46,456 nucleotides of DNA from Spirochaetaceae bacterium (GTDB lineage: Bacteria > Spirochaetota > Spirochaetia > Treponematales > Treponemataceae), in the NCBI GenBank assembly GCA_017936665.1, contig JAGBFB010000023.1, forward strand, positions 1-46,456. Direction: 5' to 3'. The notes beneath the pieces were generated by a model. That model was not told the DNA's origin. It searched no databases and worked only from the letters and a program-made list of their open reading frames with translations. Each line of letters begins with the position of its first letter. Position 1 is the stretch's first letter. This document shows positions 18,320-24,859 of the stretch, piece by piece. The translations under genes and the position numbers were made by a program.

Positions 18320-18439
18320 TCTGATAGCTTAAAAGCAAATAATAAAATAGCCCTAGAAATATTCTAGGGCTGTTTTTTTTAAATCACAAATATGAATTAA
18401 TAAGTGCTTCGATGTGGTGTAAATTTTCTTTTGATACTT
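18320..18439 (+). repeat. Direct repeat, left copy (terminator plus XRE 3' end)
   Basis: These 120 bp recur at 24861-24981 in the same orientation, with five substitutions and one inserted base. They begin right after the stop codon of the upstream plus-strand gene in both places and include the terminator hairpin. They run into the last 18 codons of the minus-strand XRE gene. Confidence 0.93.
18349..18380 (+). terminator. Terminator of msmX
   Basis: AGCCCTAGAA (18349-18358) pairs with TTCTAGGGCT (18362-18371), followed by G and eight T. The stem is symmetrical enough to work for the convergent XRE gene as well. Confidence 0.88.
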
Positions 18440-18704
18440 TATTGAGTTTTTTTACAATACGAACAACTTCACATGAAAGTTCTTCATTTTTAATAATTTT
18501 TGAGTTTTTTCCTGTAACAAGATATTCAACAGTAACGTTTAAGGCTTGGGCTATTTTTACTGCAACATCAGCTGAAGGTATAGAACTGTTTTCACGTAGA
18601 TAGTTACTTAATGAAGCCTGATTTATTCCAGTTTTTTCTGCTAAATCTTTAATCATAAAACCTTGAAAATTTAATTCTTCCCGTAAATTATCTTTAAAAC
18701 TCAT
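18384..18704 (-). CDS. XRE/Cro-CI family transcriptional regulator
   Basis: This is a 106-residue DNA-binding protein. An HTH_XRE domain covers about residues 8-63 (IKDLAEKTGINQASLSNYL, then ALNVTVEYLVTG). A short helical tail (about 85-106) may mediate dimer formation. It ends in TGA at 18384-18386. It is divergent from the large lipoprotein gene, and the 134-bp gap between them contains three matching palindromic elements, so it probably controls both genes. Its -10 (TATACT, 18716-18711) ends 6 nt before the ATG without an SD, and one operator arm overlaps that promoter, consistent with autoregulation. Its last 18 codons lie within the direct repeat and have a decayed second copy at 24926-24979. 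Confidence 0.88.
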   Translation of the reverse strand: MSFKDNLREELNFQGFMIKDLAEKTGINQASLSNYLRENSSIPSADVAVKIAQALNVTVEYLVTGKNSKIIKNEELSCEVVRIVKKLNKVSKENLHHIEALINSYL

Positions 18705-18717
18705 TTTTCAAGTATAT

Positions 18718-18787
18718 GTATATTTACAATTAAAAACTTGACTGTAAGTAAATATACTGATAGTATGATAATGTGTGTAAATTTACA
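18718..18787. promoter_or_regulatory. Divergent promoter region with three operator-like palindromic elements
   Basis: GTATATTTAC (18718-18727) and its exact inverse complement GTAAATATAC (18748-18757) form a spaced inverted repeat. The perfect palindrome TGTAAATTTACA lies at 18776-18787. All share the core GTAAAT. For the lipoprotein gene, TTGACT (18738-18743) with TAGTAT (18761-18766) or TATGAT (18764-18769) gives a promoter that encloses the second element. The first element overlaps the XRE gene's own -10 region. Confidence 0.75.
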
Positions 18788-18838
18788 TGTTTTTATAAAA
18801 ATTAGTAGATTTATAGTTTTGTTATAAAGGGGAATTTT

Positions 18839-21800
18839 ATGAAGAACTTTAGTATGTGGTTTGTTACAATTTTGTTAATTGTAAGTATGATTTTTGGAAT
18901 TGTTGGATGTAAGGAACCACCTGTTCAAATAGAGCCTCCAGTTCTTGATAATCCTAATGTTGATGTAAATCCTGATGATGATTTACCTCAAACAGGCAAT
19001 GCAGTAGAAGATACTATAGCTCCTAGTGATGTTAGTAATTTACGAGCCATAAATAAAGATTCAAGTGTATTGTTAACATGGACAGATGCTACTGATAATG
19101 ACATTTTAGGATATGAAGTAAGTTGGGATAAAGAAGCTCCTATAAATAGAGCAATTTCGTTACCAGAAAATTCTATGATGGTTGCTATCAAATCTCAAGG
19201 ATGTTACATAAGTAATTTAATAAATGGAATTGAATATGAGTTTACAGTAAAAACAGTTGATTTTTCTGGTAATAAAAGTTCAGGTTTAAAAGTAAAAATT
19301 ACTCCAACGATAATAGAAAAAACTCCTTTACAAATTGTATTAACACCTAATACTGTCGAAAAAACAAAAGAAAATGTAGAAATTACTGTACAAGTAACCA
19401 CGGATGTAAATAGTAGTGTAAAAAAAATCCTATATAAGGAAGGAGTTTTTACAAAAATAGATGAAGTTCTTAGAGGAATAGATATAACTGTAACACAAAA
19501 AATTATTGCAACAAAAAATACTACCTATACTATTGTTGCAACTGATACTGCTGGTCGCCGTGAAATTCAATGGATTACAGTTGATAATATTGATATTGTT
19601 CCTCCTGCACAAATTTCAAATTTTAAGGCTGAATATAATAGATCTAAAAAACTTATTTATGTAAATTGGGTAAATCCTACAGATGATGATTTTGTTGGAA
19701 CAATACTTACATACAAAAAAATCGGTTCAAAAGAGACGCGTATAGAATTAGATAAAAATACATCATCTTTTATAATAGAGAATATAAATTCTGATGAGAG
19801 TGGTTATTCAATAACCATATGTAGTATTGATGATTTTGGAAATACTAGTTCTATAAAAACTATATATTTAGTTGCTAATGATACCTTAAAATTGAATATA
19901 AATGCAGGTGAAGGTTGGATAGAAACTGAATCAGAGGAAAAAGTTAAATCTATTACTTTTGATTTTGAAGAAGGGGAATATATTTATAAAATACTTGAAA
20001 AATTCGATTTTGATGTATATGGTGAATTAAACGAAGAAAAAAACATATGGTATGCATATAAAGAAAATGATACATATTATGATTGGAACTATGAATTTAT
20101 CGACGCAGAAGGAAATATATTATTAGAAGAGGACTGGATATATAAAAAACTTAATGAAGATACAACATTAACGCTTTTTTATCGTAAATTAATACCTATA
20201 ACTTATAACTTAAATGGAGGAGTATCAAGAATTAATGGTTCTTCTGATGATATTATAGAATATCAATTAGAAGGTCTTGAATTAAATGAAAATTTAACTC
20301 CAGAAATTTCTGATATATACAAAGAAGGATTTTACTTACGAGGTTGGACAACTCTTCGTAATGGAGATGATTATCTTACAATATGTCCTAATTATCCAAC
20401 TACAGTTTATGCTAAATGGGAAGAACCTAAAACTTGTTCATTAATACTAAAATCTGGAGAATACTCAGGATTTTATAATTACGATACATTTTTAGGTGAT
20501 GAAATTATTTTACAATTTGAATCAGGAAAGTCTTTATCTGATGTTTTGTACGAAAATGATTTTTATTCATATATTCCTGTTAATGAAAATGAATTTTTAG
20601 GCAAGCGTTTTGGTGGTTTTATAGATTCTCAAGATAATATATATTATATGAGTTCTATGTTAACCGATTCTGTAGAACTTGAGGCCTTTACTCGAGATTT
20701 ATATCCAGAAGAATTATGTATAAATTTGAACTTTAATGGAGTAAATATTGAAGGATATGATGAATTTTGTTTCTATGAGTATGAACATTCCTACAAAGAA
20801 TTCTTAATTGAATTTGGAGAGATAATTTCTGAATATATAAAAGATGAAAATATGGAATATGTTTTTGGTGGATGGACATATACTAAAGATGGTGAAGATT
20901 TTGTTGATTCTCTTCCATGGGGAACAACTTCAACTATCTATGCAAAATGGTATTCTAAAGATTATCTATCACAGATTCTTCCTTATCAATACAGTGATGA
21001 TAATTCCAAAGTAACATTTATTTTTAGACCTAATGATTTTGGTTTAGATTGGTCAGTCAATGAAAATTATACTGTAAAATTATTATGTGAAATTACGGAT
21101 TGGAATATTTATAGCGATAAAAAAGACTTTGTTCTTTTAAAGAATCCCGATGGAACTTATTCTGTTACCTTTAATTATAATGAAATAGCTGATGGGCTTT
21201 TTTATTGGTCTGGTTTCCAGTTTGCTGTTGTAGAAAGTGGTAAGTGGTATGGTTTGCCAGAGTTTAAACCTTTTATACCTGACAGTATGACAATGAAAGA
21301 ACAAGGTGATGATGGAAGTTTTAAACTTGATCTTTTCCCTATGTCATTATCAATTGATTTAAATGGTGGAACAAGTTTTGATGGGGAAACTTCTCTAATG
21401 TCTTTTGAAATTTCTTGGGCAGAATATGATGAAAAACATTTCCATTTTATAGAATTTAATCATTGTCTTTGGGAATTAGGAGTACAAAATCCTACAAAAG
21501 AAAATCATATTTTTGCAGGATGGACTTTTACTAAGGACGGTACCGATTATGTAAGTTCAAAATATAATTATTTACCTTATGGAAATTATACTCTTTATGC
21601 TAAGTGGATAGAAGAAAAAGAATGTACTTTAACATTACAAGCTATAGAAAACTCTGAATTTGTAAATAAAGATGGAATTACATTTGATACAGATTTAATG
21701 TTTAACTTTCAAGCAGGTATGCGTTTGTATGAAGTTCTATCTTACAATGACATAAATCCTATTTATAATTCTTTAGATGATAGAGGTTATGTTTTATCTC

Positions 21801-22861
21801 ATTATGTAGATGAATATGACAATGAGTATCTTTTAGATACAATTTTAGAGAATGATGTAATGCTTTATCCTGTATTTAAACTTGTTCCAAGAGTAACTTA
21901 CAACTTTAATGGTGGTTATTTGGAAGATTATGTTGGTGATATTCTCGTTATAGATGCTTCTGATTTTGAAGTTGATATTAATGATGTTGTAAGAGATTCA
22001 TATATCTTTGCAGGTTGGACTTTAACACCAGATGGTAATGATTTTATATATGAAACAGCAGAAGATGTAACTGTTTATGCTAGATGGATTAGAGTTACAC
22101 CAGAATCTTCTACAAATGTTTACAGTTATACAGTTCCGATTTCTAAAATTTCTGAACAATGGGAAGGAAATTCTCTTAAAGCTGATTTTGCTGTAATGGT
22201 TATGACAGATAATGAAGTAAAATCTTTGACCCATGATAATATTTATAGATATAATTATGATCTTGATCATGACTTTTATAGTAAAAATTTAAATCTTAAT
22301 ACAACTAGACCTGGAAACTTCTCTATAATCGATGGTATAGCAGCAACAGTAACACAGACTGATGTAACAGTATTTGTTGATATGTCAAAATTTTATTGCG
22401 AAAATGGAACAGAAGGTAAAAAACCTTATGTAGTTGCTCTTGTAAGAGAAAATCATGCTCCAGAAGATTATTCTTATACACATTGGGGGGATACAATGAT
22501 TATGTATCCAGAGGCAGTATTTCCAACAAATTTACAACAACAAGGGGTTCCTTCTGATATGTTTACATTATCTTATGTTGCAGGAACTATGACTGATCCT
22601 GTATGGGAAGTTGCTGGTATTCCTTTAGTGGATAATTCTTTTTTACTAGAGAGTAATGAAGAAGAAATACAATTTAAATTTAATGATGGTACATGGAATT
22701 GTTCTTATGGAATTTTAGATGGTCCTGTGGAACAAGAAGGAATCTACACTTTAGGAGGAAGTGGTAATATCGTTTGTAATTTACCAGAAGGAACTTACTG
22801 TATTACTCTTGATGTTACAGAGGATTATGCTAGGGTAATAGTAGAAAAAATAGAAAATTAA
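18839..22861 (+). CDS. Large surface lipoprotein with FN3 domains and InlB-type repeats
   Basis: No enzymatic function is recognised. The 1340 residues start with a lipoprotein signal (lipobox GIVGC, Cys24) and an acidic/proline linker. FN3-like domains lie at about 60-155 and 255-345. At least four InlB/Listeria-Bacteroides repeats follow, at about 453-528, 627-705, 845-930 and 1025-1090. They are recognised by repeated F-x-GWT-x-T-x-(D/N)G-x-(D/N) and YAKW/YARW pairs. Between them, about 720-810 looks like an E-set carbohydrate-binding fold (EITDWNIYSD ... GLFYWSGFQF). The end (GGSGNIVCNLPEGTYCITLD) is also beta-sandwich-like. The start is supported by AAAGGGG. Surface adhesion or glycan binding is inferred. 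It is probably regulated by the divergent XRE gene. Confidence 0.85.
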   Translation: MKNFSMWFVTILLIVSMIFGIVGCKEPPVQIEPPVLDNPNVDVNPDDDLPQTGNAVEDTIAPSDVSNLRAINKDSSVLLTWTDATDNDILGYEVSWDKEAPINRAISLPENSMMVAIKSQGCYISNLINGIEYEFTVKTVDFSGNKSSGLKVKITPTIIEKTPLQIVLTPNTVEKTKENVEITVQVTTDVNSSVKKILYKEGVFTKIDEVLRGIDITVTQKIIATKNTTYTIVATDTAGRREIQWITVDNIDIVPPAQISNFKAEYNRSKKLIYVNWVNPTDDDFVGTILTYKKIGSKETRIELDKNTSSFIIENINSDESGYSITICSIDDFGNTSSIKTIYLVANDTLKLNINAGEGWIETESEEKVKSITFDFEEGEYIYKILEKFDFDVYGELNEEKNIWYAYKENDTYYDWNYEFIDAEGNILLEEDWIYKKLNEDTTLTLFYRKLIPITYNLNGGVSRINGSSDDIIEYQLEGLELNENLTPEISDIYKEGFYLRGWTTLRNGDDYLTICPNYPTTVYAKWEEPKTCSLILKSGEYSGFYNYDTFLGDEIILQFESGKSLSDVLYENDFYSYIPVNENEFLGKRFGGFIDSQDNIYYMSSMLTDSVELEAFTRDLYPEELCINLNFNGVNIEGYDEFCFYEYEHSYKEFLIEFGEIISEYIKDENMEYVFGGWTYTKDGEDFVDSLPWGTTSTIYAKWYSKDYLSQILPYQYSDDNSKVTFIFRPNDFGLDWSVNENYTVKLLCEITDWNIYSDKKDFVLLKNPDGTYSVTFNYNEIADGLFYWSGFQFAVVESGKWYGLPEFKPFIPDSMTMKEQGDDGSFKLDLFPMSLSIDLNGGTSFDGETSLMSFEISWAEYDEKHFHFIEFNHCLWELGVQNPTKENHIFAGWTFTKDGTDYVSSKYNYLPYGNYTLYAKWIEEKECTLTLQAIENSEFVNKDGITFDTDLMFNFQAGMRLYEVLSYNDINPIYNSLDDRGYVLSHYVDEYDNEYLLDTILENDVMLYPVFKLVPRVTYNFNGGYLEDYVGDILVIDASDFEVDINDVVRDSYIFAGWTLTPDGNDFIYETAEDVTVYARWIRVTPESSTNVYSYTVPISKISEQWEGNSLKADFAVMVMTDNEVKSLTHDNIYRYNYDLDHDFYSKNLNLNTTRPGNFSIIDGIAATVTQTDVTVFVDMSKFYCENGTEGKKPYVVALVRENHAPEDYSYTHWGDTMIMYPEAVFPTNLQQQGVPSDMFTLSYVAGTMTDPVWEVAGIPLVDNSFLLESNEEEIQFKFNDGTWNCSYGILDGPVEQEGIYTLGGSGNIVCNLPEGTYCITLDVTEDYARVIVEKIEN

Positions 22862-22909: not shown

Positions 22910-22939
22910 TTTATGTTATATGATGATGTAGGAGTTTTT

Positions 22940-24859
22940 ATGAAATCTTATTTGATAAATTCAAAATATTTTATTCTAATGATATTTTTACTTTTTATGG
23001 GGATTATATTTTTTATTGAAAGTTGTAGTAATAGTTCTTCTTTAACATCAATAAATATTAATTTAGATTTATCAAAAATATTAAAAACTTCAAGAAATCC
23101 AACAAGTCTAGAAACAAATGAATATATATTAAAAATTTATGCATATGATGCATCAAACTATAAAAAAAATGATGTAATAGAAAATCTTCCTGTATTGTCA
23201 CAAAGTCAAAGCAATGTTAATGTAAATGGTATAGTAAAATCTACTTTGGATGTTCCAATTGGATATAATGTTATCTTTATGGCTAAAATATTTTTATTTG
23301 TTGATAATTTTATAGATGACAAACCTCTTTATTCTGGAAGTAGTGAAATATTAAAAATTAAACCTATGGGAAATAAAATACATCTAAATTTGATAAAAAC
23401 GCATACTGATATAGATATTGATATAAATATTGAAGAAACACAATATTTCACTGTTACTTTTGATTCAAAAGGTGGTAATGATATAGAAAAACAAAGTGTT
23501 AAATATGGAACTAATGTTACAGAACCTTCATCTCCAACAAAACAAGGTTATGTGTTTTCAGGTTGGTATACATCAAAAGATGATGGAAAAACATTAGATA
23601 TTCTGTTTAATTTTGATACATTAATAACTAATGATATAACATTGTATGCATTGTGGATTGAAAATGAAAATACATCATACACAGTTGAGCATTATCAGCA
23701 AAATATTTTAGATAATAATTATTCTATTTTTGAAACTGAAAATAAAACAGGAATAACAGGTGAACAAACACTAGCTGAAGCAAAAAAATATGTAGGGTTT
23801 ACAGAAAAAACTTTTGAACAATTAATTATTTCACCTGATGAATCAACTGTAGTTAAGATTTATTATGATAGAAATATGTATACTGTTAGTTTTGATTCAA
23901 TGGGTAGTAATTCTATAGAAAGTCAAACTGTGAAATATGAAGGATGTGTAAAAATTCCTAATACATCACCTAATCGCGAAGAGTATGAGTTTTTAGGCTG
24001 GTATGCTAGTGATGACGATGGTAAAACTATCAGTGAAATCTCTTTTAATTTTAATACACCTATTGTTGAAAATTTAGTTTTATATGCTAAATATAAAGTT
24101 ATAGAAAAATTTATTTTCGTAGAAGGAACAACTATTAAAGATAATATAACAGCTACTGGATTTTTTGATAGTGATATATTTGTTTCAGGTACTGAAGTTA
24201 TTATACCTTCTTTTTACATAAGTGATCATGAAGTAACGCAAGGAGAATATAAAACTTATTGTAGTTATAAAAATTCATCTCCAACTTCTTCTTATGGTTT
24301 AGGTGATAATTATCCAGCTTATTATGTAAATATGTTTGATGCATTTGTGTATTGTAATAAAAGAAGTATTGCAGAGGGGCGTATGCCATGTTATACAATA
24401 AAAAATAGTACTGATCCAGAAAAATGGGGAGACCCTGTAGAAAATGAAACAGATTGGTTAAATGTTGTATGTGATTTTACTGTTAATGGTTATAGATTAC
24501 CTACCGAAGAAGAATGGGAATATGCAGCTCGAGGAGGTAACAATCTTTCTTCTTATCAATATAAATATTCAGGAAGTGATACAATTGATGAAGTTGCATT
24601 CTATTCATCAAATTCTAAAAATACAACTCATGAAGTGAAACTTAAAAAGCCAAATGAACTCGGAATATATGATATGTCAGGAAATTTATATGAATTTTGT
24701 TTTAGTATATATCCAGATATTCCTAATAATTACTGTATTCGAGGTGGAAGTATTACGAATAATGAATCATATTGTACTGTAAAGTCTAATAATTTTACTG
24801 CTCCCAATGGTACTGGTACTAGAAATTATGGATTCCGTATTGTTTATACAGCTGAATAA
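22940..24859 (+). CDS. Lipoprotein with InlB-type repeats and a C-terminal FGE-sulfatase (C-type-lectin-like) domain
   Basis: This 639-residue protein starts at the ATG at 22940, which has AGGAG 5 nt upstream. An earlier frame start at 22913 has none. The signal ends in a lipobox-like FIESC (Cys29). An N-terminal beta domain is followed by an InlB-type repeat (about 170-247) and a MucBP-like segment (about 248-315, YTVEHYQQN ... STVVKIYYDRN). A second repeat lies at about 315-388. The C-terminal 240 residues have the formylglycine-generating-enzyme fold: IPSFYISDHEVTQGEYKTYC, GYRLPTEEEWEYAARGG, GIYDMSGNLYEFC, CIRGGS and the closing NYGFRIV. In bacteria such domains are often binding modules rather than enzymes. 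In treponemes the fold is also used by DGR-diversified surface proteins. No reverse transcriptase or template repeat is in this window. Confidence 0.85.
   Translation: MKSYLINSKYFILMIFLLFMGIIFFIESCSNSSSLTSININLDLSKILKTSRNPTSLETNEYILKIYAYDASNYKKNDVIENLPVLSQSQSNVNVNGIVKSTLDVPIGYNVIFMAKIFLFVDNFIDDKPLYSGSSEILKIKPMGNKIHLNLIKTHTDIDIDINIEETQYFTVTFDSKGGNDIEKQSVKYGTNVTEPSSPTKQGYVFSGWYTSKDDGKTLDILFNFDTLITNDITLYALWIENENTSYTVEHYQQNILDNNYSIFETENKTGITGEQTLAEAKKYVGFTEKTFEQLIISPDESTVVKIYYDRNMYTVSFDSMGSNSIESQTVKYEGCVKIPNTSPNREEYEFLGWYASDDDGKTISEISFNFNTPIVENLVLYAKYKVIEKFIFVEGTTIKDNITATGFFDSDIFVSGTEVIIPSFYISDHEVTQGEYKTYCSYKNSSPTSSYGLGDNYPAYYVNMFDAFVYCNKRSIAEGRMPCYTIKNSTDPEKWGDPVENETDWLNVVCDFTVNGYRLPTEEEWEYAARGGNNLSSYQYKYSGSDTIDEVAFYSSNSKNTTHEVKLKKPNELGIYDMSGNLYEFCFSIYPDIPNNYCIRGGSITNNESYCTVKSNNFTAPNGTGTRNYGFRIVYTAE

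Follow-up and report, generated by a model that had tools for sequence, protein, structure and literature searches.

A putative private repressor module at a divergent lipoprotein promoter of a Treponema-like genome: a small XRE-family gene with three regularly spaced candidate operators

In the OR region of phage lambda, CI and Cro act on three operators that are common to two divergent promoters and spaced by 23-24 bp. The repressor promoter is weak and leaderless, the divergent promoter is strong, and the distal site is the most symmetric. The rstR/rstA region of phage CTX is likewise a divergent promoter with operators for a small repressor, RstR, which controls a filamentous phage replication gene, and RstR alleles differ in specificity. 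At the rstA promoter, RstR is reported to bind as a dimer of dimers (PMC8402870, citing Kimsey and Waldor 2004). For the repressor region of Staphylococcus phage phi11, an XRE-type HTH has been reported, and two divergent genes with three homologous operators between them (PMC3991615). In restriction-modification systems, leaderless C genes have been described, with a C-box of two operators upstream of the C gene (PMC4824078).

We have analysed a stretch of 46,456 nucleotides (the window), which is contig C12 of a 2.58-Mb, Treponema-like genome. A small XRE gene, whose product has its nearest named relatives in Treponema, and a lipoprotein gene diverge from a 134-bp intergenic region with divergent promoters. 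The features of the locus are as follows.

18349..18371, minus strand: terminator-like intrinsic hairpin 3' of the XRE gene, common to a convergent ABC-transporter gene
18384..18704, minus strand: XRE-family repressor gene, 106 aa, HTH_3 plus C-terminal helical hairpin
18711..18716, minus strand: probable -10 of the XRE promoter, TATACT, at -12..-7 from the ATG
18717..18728, no strand: candidate operator site 3 (XRE side), TGTATATTTACA, centre 18722.5, -18.5 from the XRE start
18738..18743, plus strand: -35 of the lipoprotein promoter, TTGACT
18747..18758, no strand: candidate operator site 2 (middle), AGTAAATATACT, centre 18752.5, -48.5 from the XRE start
18761..18766, plus strand: -10 of the lipoprotein promoter, TAGTAT, with an N17 spacer and TG in front
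18776..18787, no strand: candidate operator site 1 (lipoprotein side), TGTAAATTTACA, perfect palindrome, centre 18781.5, -77.5 from the XRE start
18839..22861, plus strand: divergent lipoprotein gene, 1340 aa, lipobox IVGC, fn3 and Listeria-Bacteroides repeat domains
22913..24859, plus strand: second lipoprotein-like gene, 648 aa, Listeria-Bacteroides repeats and FGE-sulfatase domain

The match of the 106-residue protein to PF01381 (HTH_3; E=2.7e-11, 43.8 bits, cut-off 23) places it in the XRE/Cro-CI HTH superfamily. Beyond the HTH, an AF2 model (pLDDT 85) has helices at residues 78-87 and 92-105. The predicted C-terminal part would thus be a helical hairpin only, in contrast to the cleavable C-terminal domain of the lambda repressor. 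The only sequence match in the PDB is ICEBs1 ImmR (7t8i), and it is confined to the HTH. ImmR is likewise an immunity-type XRE repressor, but the XRE gene described here has no partner gene between itself and its terminator. It is probably monocistronic. The RstR model NF041951 (NCBIfam) aligns over its full length (1-102) with 48.8 bits, below the curated cut-off of 80, and each of the 57 aligned family members is matched at E<=1e-5, the best E being 7.3e-15; PHROG repressor families match as well. The RstR locus and the locus in the window share multiple operators at a divergent promoter, whereas the gene on the other side is a lipoprotein gene here. The XRE family also differs from RstR in being chromosomal and multi-copy, and in its apparent control of surface and methyltransferase genes.

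The 1340-aa lipoprotein gene is the probable target of the XRE protein. Only 51 nt separate it from the 648-aa lipoprotein-like gene, which is possibly part of the same operon. These are the genes on the divergent transcript, and a second, opposing repressor of the Cro type is not found among them; the phi11 region, in contrast, has two divergent repressors. The protein encoded at 22913-24859 ends in an FGE-sulfatase domain, a class used by TvpA, the target of a Treponema diversity-generating retroelement. Two reverse transcriptase genes (C4, C40) are present in the genome, but their flanks and the window were found to share no template/variable repeat, and a retroelement link was therefore rejected.

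The preliminary description of this DNA, made from the letters alone, had pointed out an inverted pair of elements 20 nt apart and a perfect palindrome 18 nt further on. All three were recovered: GTATATTTAC (18718-18727) is the exact reverse complement of GTAAATATAC (18748-18757), with 20 nt between them, and TGTAAATTTACA (18776-18787) begins 18 nt beyond the latter. A reading as 12-bp sites is better than the 10-mer reading, and gives centre-to-centre spacings of 30 and 29 bp. The window contains three GTAWATWTAC-type 10-mers, all in this intergenic region, whereas a first-order Markov model predicts 0.38. For the spaced triple, the expectation is only about 2e-9 per window. Single sites are another matter: sites like TGTAAATTTACA, with two mismatches allowed, occur 16 times in the window against 12.6 expected, and are thus not above chance. 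The signal is therefore the spaced array, and not the motif alone.

In the whole 2.58-Mb genome, a pair of GTAWATWTAC sites 16-23 nt apart is found at this locus only. The 12-mer TGTAWATTTACA occurs in three further places. Two are in coding sequences, one of them a giant Ig-like coding sequence, and the third is intergenic, ahead of a gene that reads as a tryptophan-tRNA-ligase. None of them lies in a promoter of the type seen here. There is therefore no sign of a regulon beyond the locus, and a genome-wide regulon was rejected. Another perfect TGTAAATTTACA is present in an intergenic region at about 1501-1780 of locus L001 (G000:C1:23521), amid repeat-like segments (GGCGTAACCCAAAATCGAC...), and resembles a small repeat element.

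The sites lie at the regulator's -10 and within and just downstream of the lipoprotein promoter, as originally noted. Site 3 (18717-18728) adjoins the XRE -10, site 2 is located within the -35/-10 spacer of the lipoprotein promoter, and site 1 covers the lipoprotein transcription start. The DNA upstream of the XRE gene has neither a good -35 nor a Shine-Dalgarno sequence. In view of the position of TATACT at -12..-7, and of the missing Shine-Dalgarno sequence, the XRE mRNA is probably leaderless, with the A of the AUG as +1.

The architecture is not peculiar to this locus. We collected about 200 homologous loci from Treponemataceae and relatives in batches of 76, then 80, then 55 more, and scored each for three similar palindromes in fixed position ranges against shuffles of the same sequence. 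The ranges were chosen on the first batch; the second and third batches consist of other, though related, loci. The score exceeds z=2 in 142 of 209 loci (56/75, 51/79 and 35/55 by batch), compared with 6 of 79 for control DNA inside the same genes (median z -0.05). A separate, looser array test gave p<=0.05 in 43 of 76 loci. About one third of the homologous loci have z<2, and the layout at some of these clearly differs. The modal operator centres are at about -80/-81, -49 and -18 from the XRE start, with a spacing mode of 31/31 bp; of 107 good loci, 59 have sites 2 and 3 at a distance of 31 bp, and 93 at 30-32 bp. Promoter signals are similarly fixed. In 58 of these 107 loci, TAnnnT begins at precisely -12 relative to the XRE start, and a Shine-Dalgarno match of at least four is present in only two. 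WGTCAA, the complement of the divergent -35 in the XRE orientation, is found 54 times among 154 loci at -38..-42, in 27 cases starting exactly at -40, the commonest position. Across the family, palindromic symmetry is highest at site 1 (5.9 of 8 pairs, versus 4.4 and 4.7 for the other two; p ~1e-14). Small XRE genes of this family thus tend to carry three putative operators 31 bp apart. Family members number 8 in the genome of the window and up to 13 in others, and are present (E<=1e-15) in 39 of 296 genomes sampled from the phylum, most of them in the same family or order.

An architecture confined to Treponema is made less plausible by viral contigs with related XRE proteins, 13 of 32 of which have z>2; in the clean ones, the sites are located 10-12 bp further from the start codon. 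In L242, L243, L249, L276, L277 and L278, phage repressor genes are accompanied by three operators with a period of about 31 bp, sites 2 and 3 flank a GTCAA, and all these arrays are displaced by 10-12 bp away from the start codon. Several viral contigs thus share the 31-bp triple, including a TTGTCAA that separates its second site from its third, and the module probably descends from phage immunity regions. This origin, and the resemblance to phage repressors (the RstR model and PHROG repressor families), could also mean that the locus is a decaying prophage immunity remnant that lies beside the lipoprotein gene by chance. We regard this as very improbable, since the eight copies in the genome each have their own matched operators and divergent cargo, and the operators are maintained.

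Palindromes by themselves do not name their binder. With single sites not being rare when two mismatches are allowed, the sites might serve some other regulator, such as a global one, with the XRE gene as a bystander. We therefore compared operators with recognition helices at 106 loci. Mean operator similarity rises from 0.18 for pairs with unlike contacts to 0.80 for pairs with alike contacts at seven recognition-helix positions, whereas the similarity of the linker DNA increases only from 0.17 to 0.30 over the same range. The covariation is significant in a Mantel test (p=0.001), and likewise in a partial test on the identity of the remaining HTH, for which the few pairs with the same helix at low overall identity set a limit. 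In absolute terms it is modest (Spearman 0.26), because most pairs have unrelated helices. When all positions are ranked by partial correlation, 33, 30, 19, 29 and 31 come out on top; these match the helix-3 and helix-2 contacts of 434-type HTH proteins. Individual pairings include helix SKNTIDNYL with sites like ACACTTAATTAAGTGT at five loci, ITKRALDSYV with AACAGTATACTGT, IKKRALDMYL with TATCGTAATTACGATA and SYNTLQSW with AATCCAATTGGATT. Near-identical helices (SKNTIDNYL, SKNTLDKYL) can carry different operators. That the operators track the recognition helix while the linker DNA does not is strong, if indirect, evidence that each XRE protein would read its own three sites. The bystander reading is thereby made extremely improbable, as the operators follow the helix of the adjacent XRE protein across species, operators differ among the paralogues of a genome, and the array does not recur elsewhere in the genome of the window. 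The proposal that the elements are operators, with the XRE protein as their binder, has thus become very probable on the strength of this covariation.

Paralogues within a genome have dissimilar operators: for 109 same-genome pairs from eight multi-module genomes, operator similarity never exceeds 0.65. Between genomes it reaches 0.95, and the best pairs have the same helix. Pairs with the same operator type have homologous divergent genes (the cargo) in 19 of 170 cases; conversely, pairs with homologous divergent genes have the same operator in 19 of 114 cases and unlike operators in 78 of 114, counts for which some cargo sequences were incomplete, being ended by the fetched flank. Repressor and cargo are thus freely combined.

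By simple heuristics, the divergent genes at 142 loci comprise 32 with a lipobox, 27 that look exported and 72 without a signal. A lipoprotein-specific control is ruled out by these figures. The layout at our locus fits autoregulation and control of the giant surface lipoprotein as first proposed, but the latter description is too narrow, since the same module is found at many other genes in relatives. Pfam matches of the cargo include surface proteins (BspA-type LRR, Listeria-Bacteroides repeat, fn3), EcoRI-type and further DNA methyltransferases, NusG-like factors, and polysaccharide and acyltransferase proteins. Among the cargos in the genome of the window are a lipoprotein or surface protein on each of C12, C36 and C42, and a DNA methyltransferase on each of C39, C2 and C7. 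NusG-like (antiterminator-like) proteins are a recurrent cargo of the IKKRALDMYL repressor group (L104, L141, L142, L165, L166); factors of this type usually head long polysaccharide operons. Another recurrent cargo protein, with a start like MKxYAILCGSAP (L091, L099, L157, L148, L223, L031), is associated with several different operator types, and had no Pfam match in those tested. At L009 (G000:C42), upstream of a lipoprotein gene, about 150 bp with inverted repeats inside lie between two near-identical leader copies like TTTTTTTGGAGGATGTATGAAAA. The stretch resembles a small insertion or duplication that separates the gene from the promoter.

The methyltransferases among the cargo bring to mind the controller (C) proteins, which activate their own gene at low level and repress it at high level. 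C proteins are also small XRE regulators, encoded by leaderless genes and sometimes located beside methyltransferases, as are some homologues of the XRE gene. It is nevertheless unlikely that the locus works in this way. A C-box has two operators, whereas three at about 31 bp are found here, shared with the divergent promoter; the XRE gene of the window has no restriction-modification gene beside it, and the cargo of the family is mostly of other kinds.

The computations show where the sites are, how they are spaced and conserved, that they are linked to the recognition helix, and that the XRE promoter has a leaderless geometry. On this basis, we consider it highly likely that the locus is a self-contained, private repressor module, in which the XRE protein acts on three operators, shuts off the lipoprotein gene and represses its own weak, leaderless promoter. 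The 106-aa protein would bind to the three operators, presumably as a dimer. With about three helical turns between operators (31-bp period), the dimers would be on one face of the DNA and could cooperate, and the predicted C-terminal hairpin is a plausible dimer or tetramer surface. Protein bound at sites 1 and 2 would lie over the strong lipoprotein promoter, on its start and on its -35/-10 spacer, and thus turn the gene off. Binding to site 3 would cover the XRE -10 region, and limit the synthesis of the repressor, which would be made from a leaderless mRNA under a weak promoter. Since the palindrome at site 1 is the most perfect one across the family, the cargo promoter may be occupied first, and autorepression may set in last, at a higher repressor level. 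It is the geometry that points to repression rather than activation by the XRE protein.

The preliminary description had likened the region to lambda-like Cro/CI or immunity-type switches. The resemblance to a phage-immunity-type promoter region holds up, but Cro/CI logic is not supported, as there is one regulator and no second repressor gene. A bistable switch, also suggested there, in which a cooperative repressor with a weak, leaderless promoter similar to lambda PRM would create ON and OFF cells and phase-varied surface or restriction-modification genes, seems a possible but doubtful reading. The topology is that of lambda OR, with three ordered operators of which site 1 is the most symmetric, and with a repressor promoter that lacks a clear -35 opposite a strong divergent promoter; moreover, the cargo includes classes (lipoproteins, DNA methyltransferases, NusG-like factors, polysaccharide genes) that are phase-varying in other bacteria. 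However, a single regulator without Cro that only represses itself would not be bistable. Site 2 is centred at -49 from the presumed +1, instead of -42 as in activating lambda OR2, and positive feedback is nowhere visible in the sequence. More speculatively still, and with somewhat less confidence, one may imagine that treponemes use up to 13 modules per genome, mutually orthogonal phage-type sets of a repressor and three operators, to turn surface lipoproteins, polysaccharide-operon regulators and DNA methyltransferases ON and OFF epigenetically. Such modules, reshuffled among cargo, would take the role that invertible promoters or repeat slippage play elsewhere.

The control of the numerous surface lipoproteins of treponemes is, to our knowledge, poorly understood, and in the library searched we found no paper on Treponema XRE/lipoprotein operators or on this module family. 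The result that reaches beyond the single locus is a family of plug-in repressor modules with a fixed architecture and a changeable specificity. The family comprises considerably more than a hundred naturally occurring repressor/operator pairs that have a common scaffold and a common spacing. These form a natural data set in which to study the XRE recognition code, and synthetic circuits could draw on them for orthogonal repressors. Should the modules function in the predicted way, surface genes would each have their own dedicated and insulated repressor, and the regulation of surface variation would become testable gene by gene.
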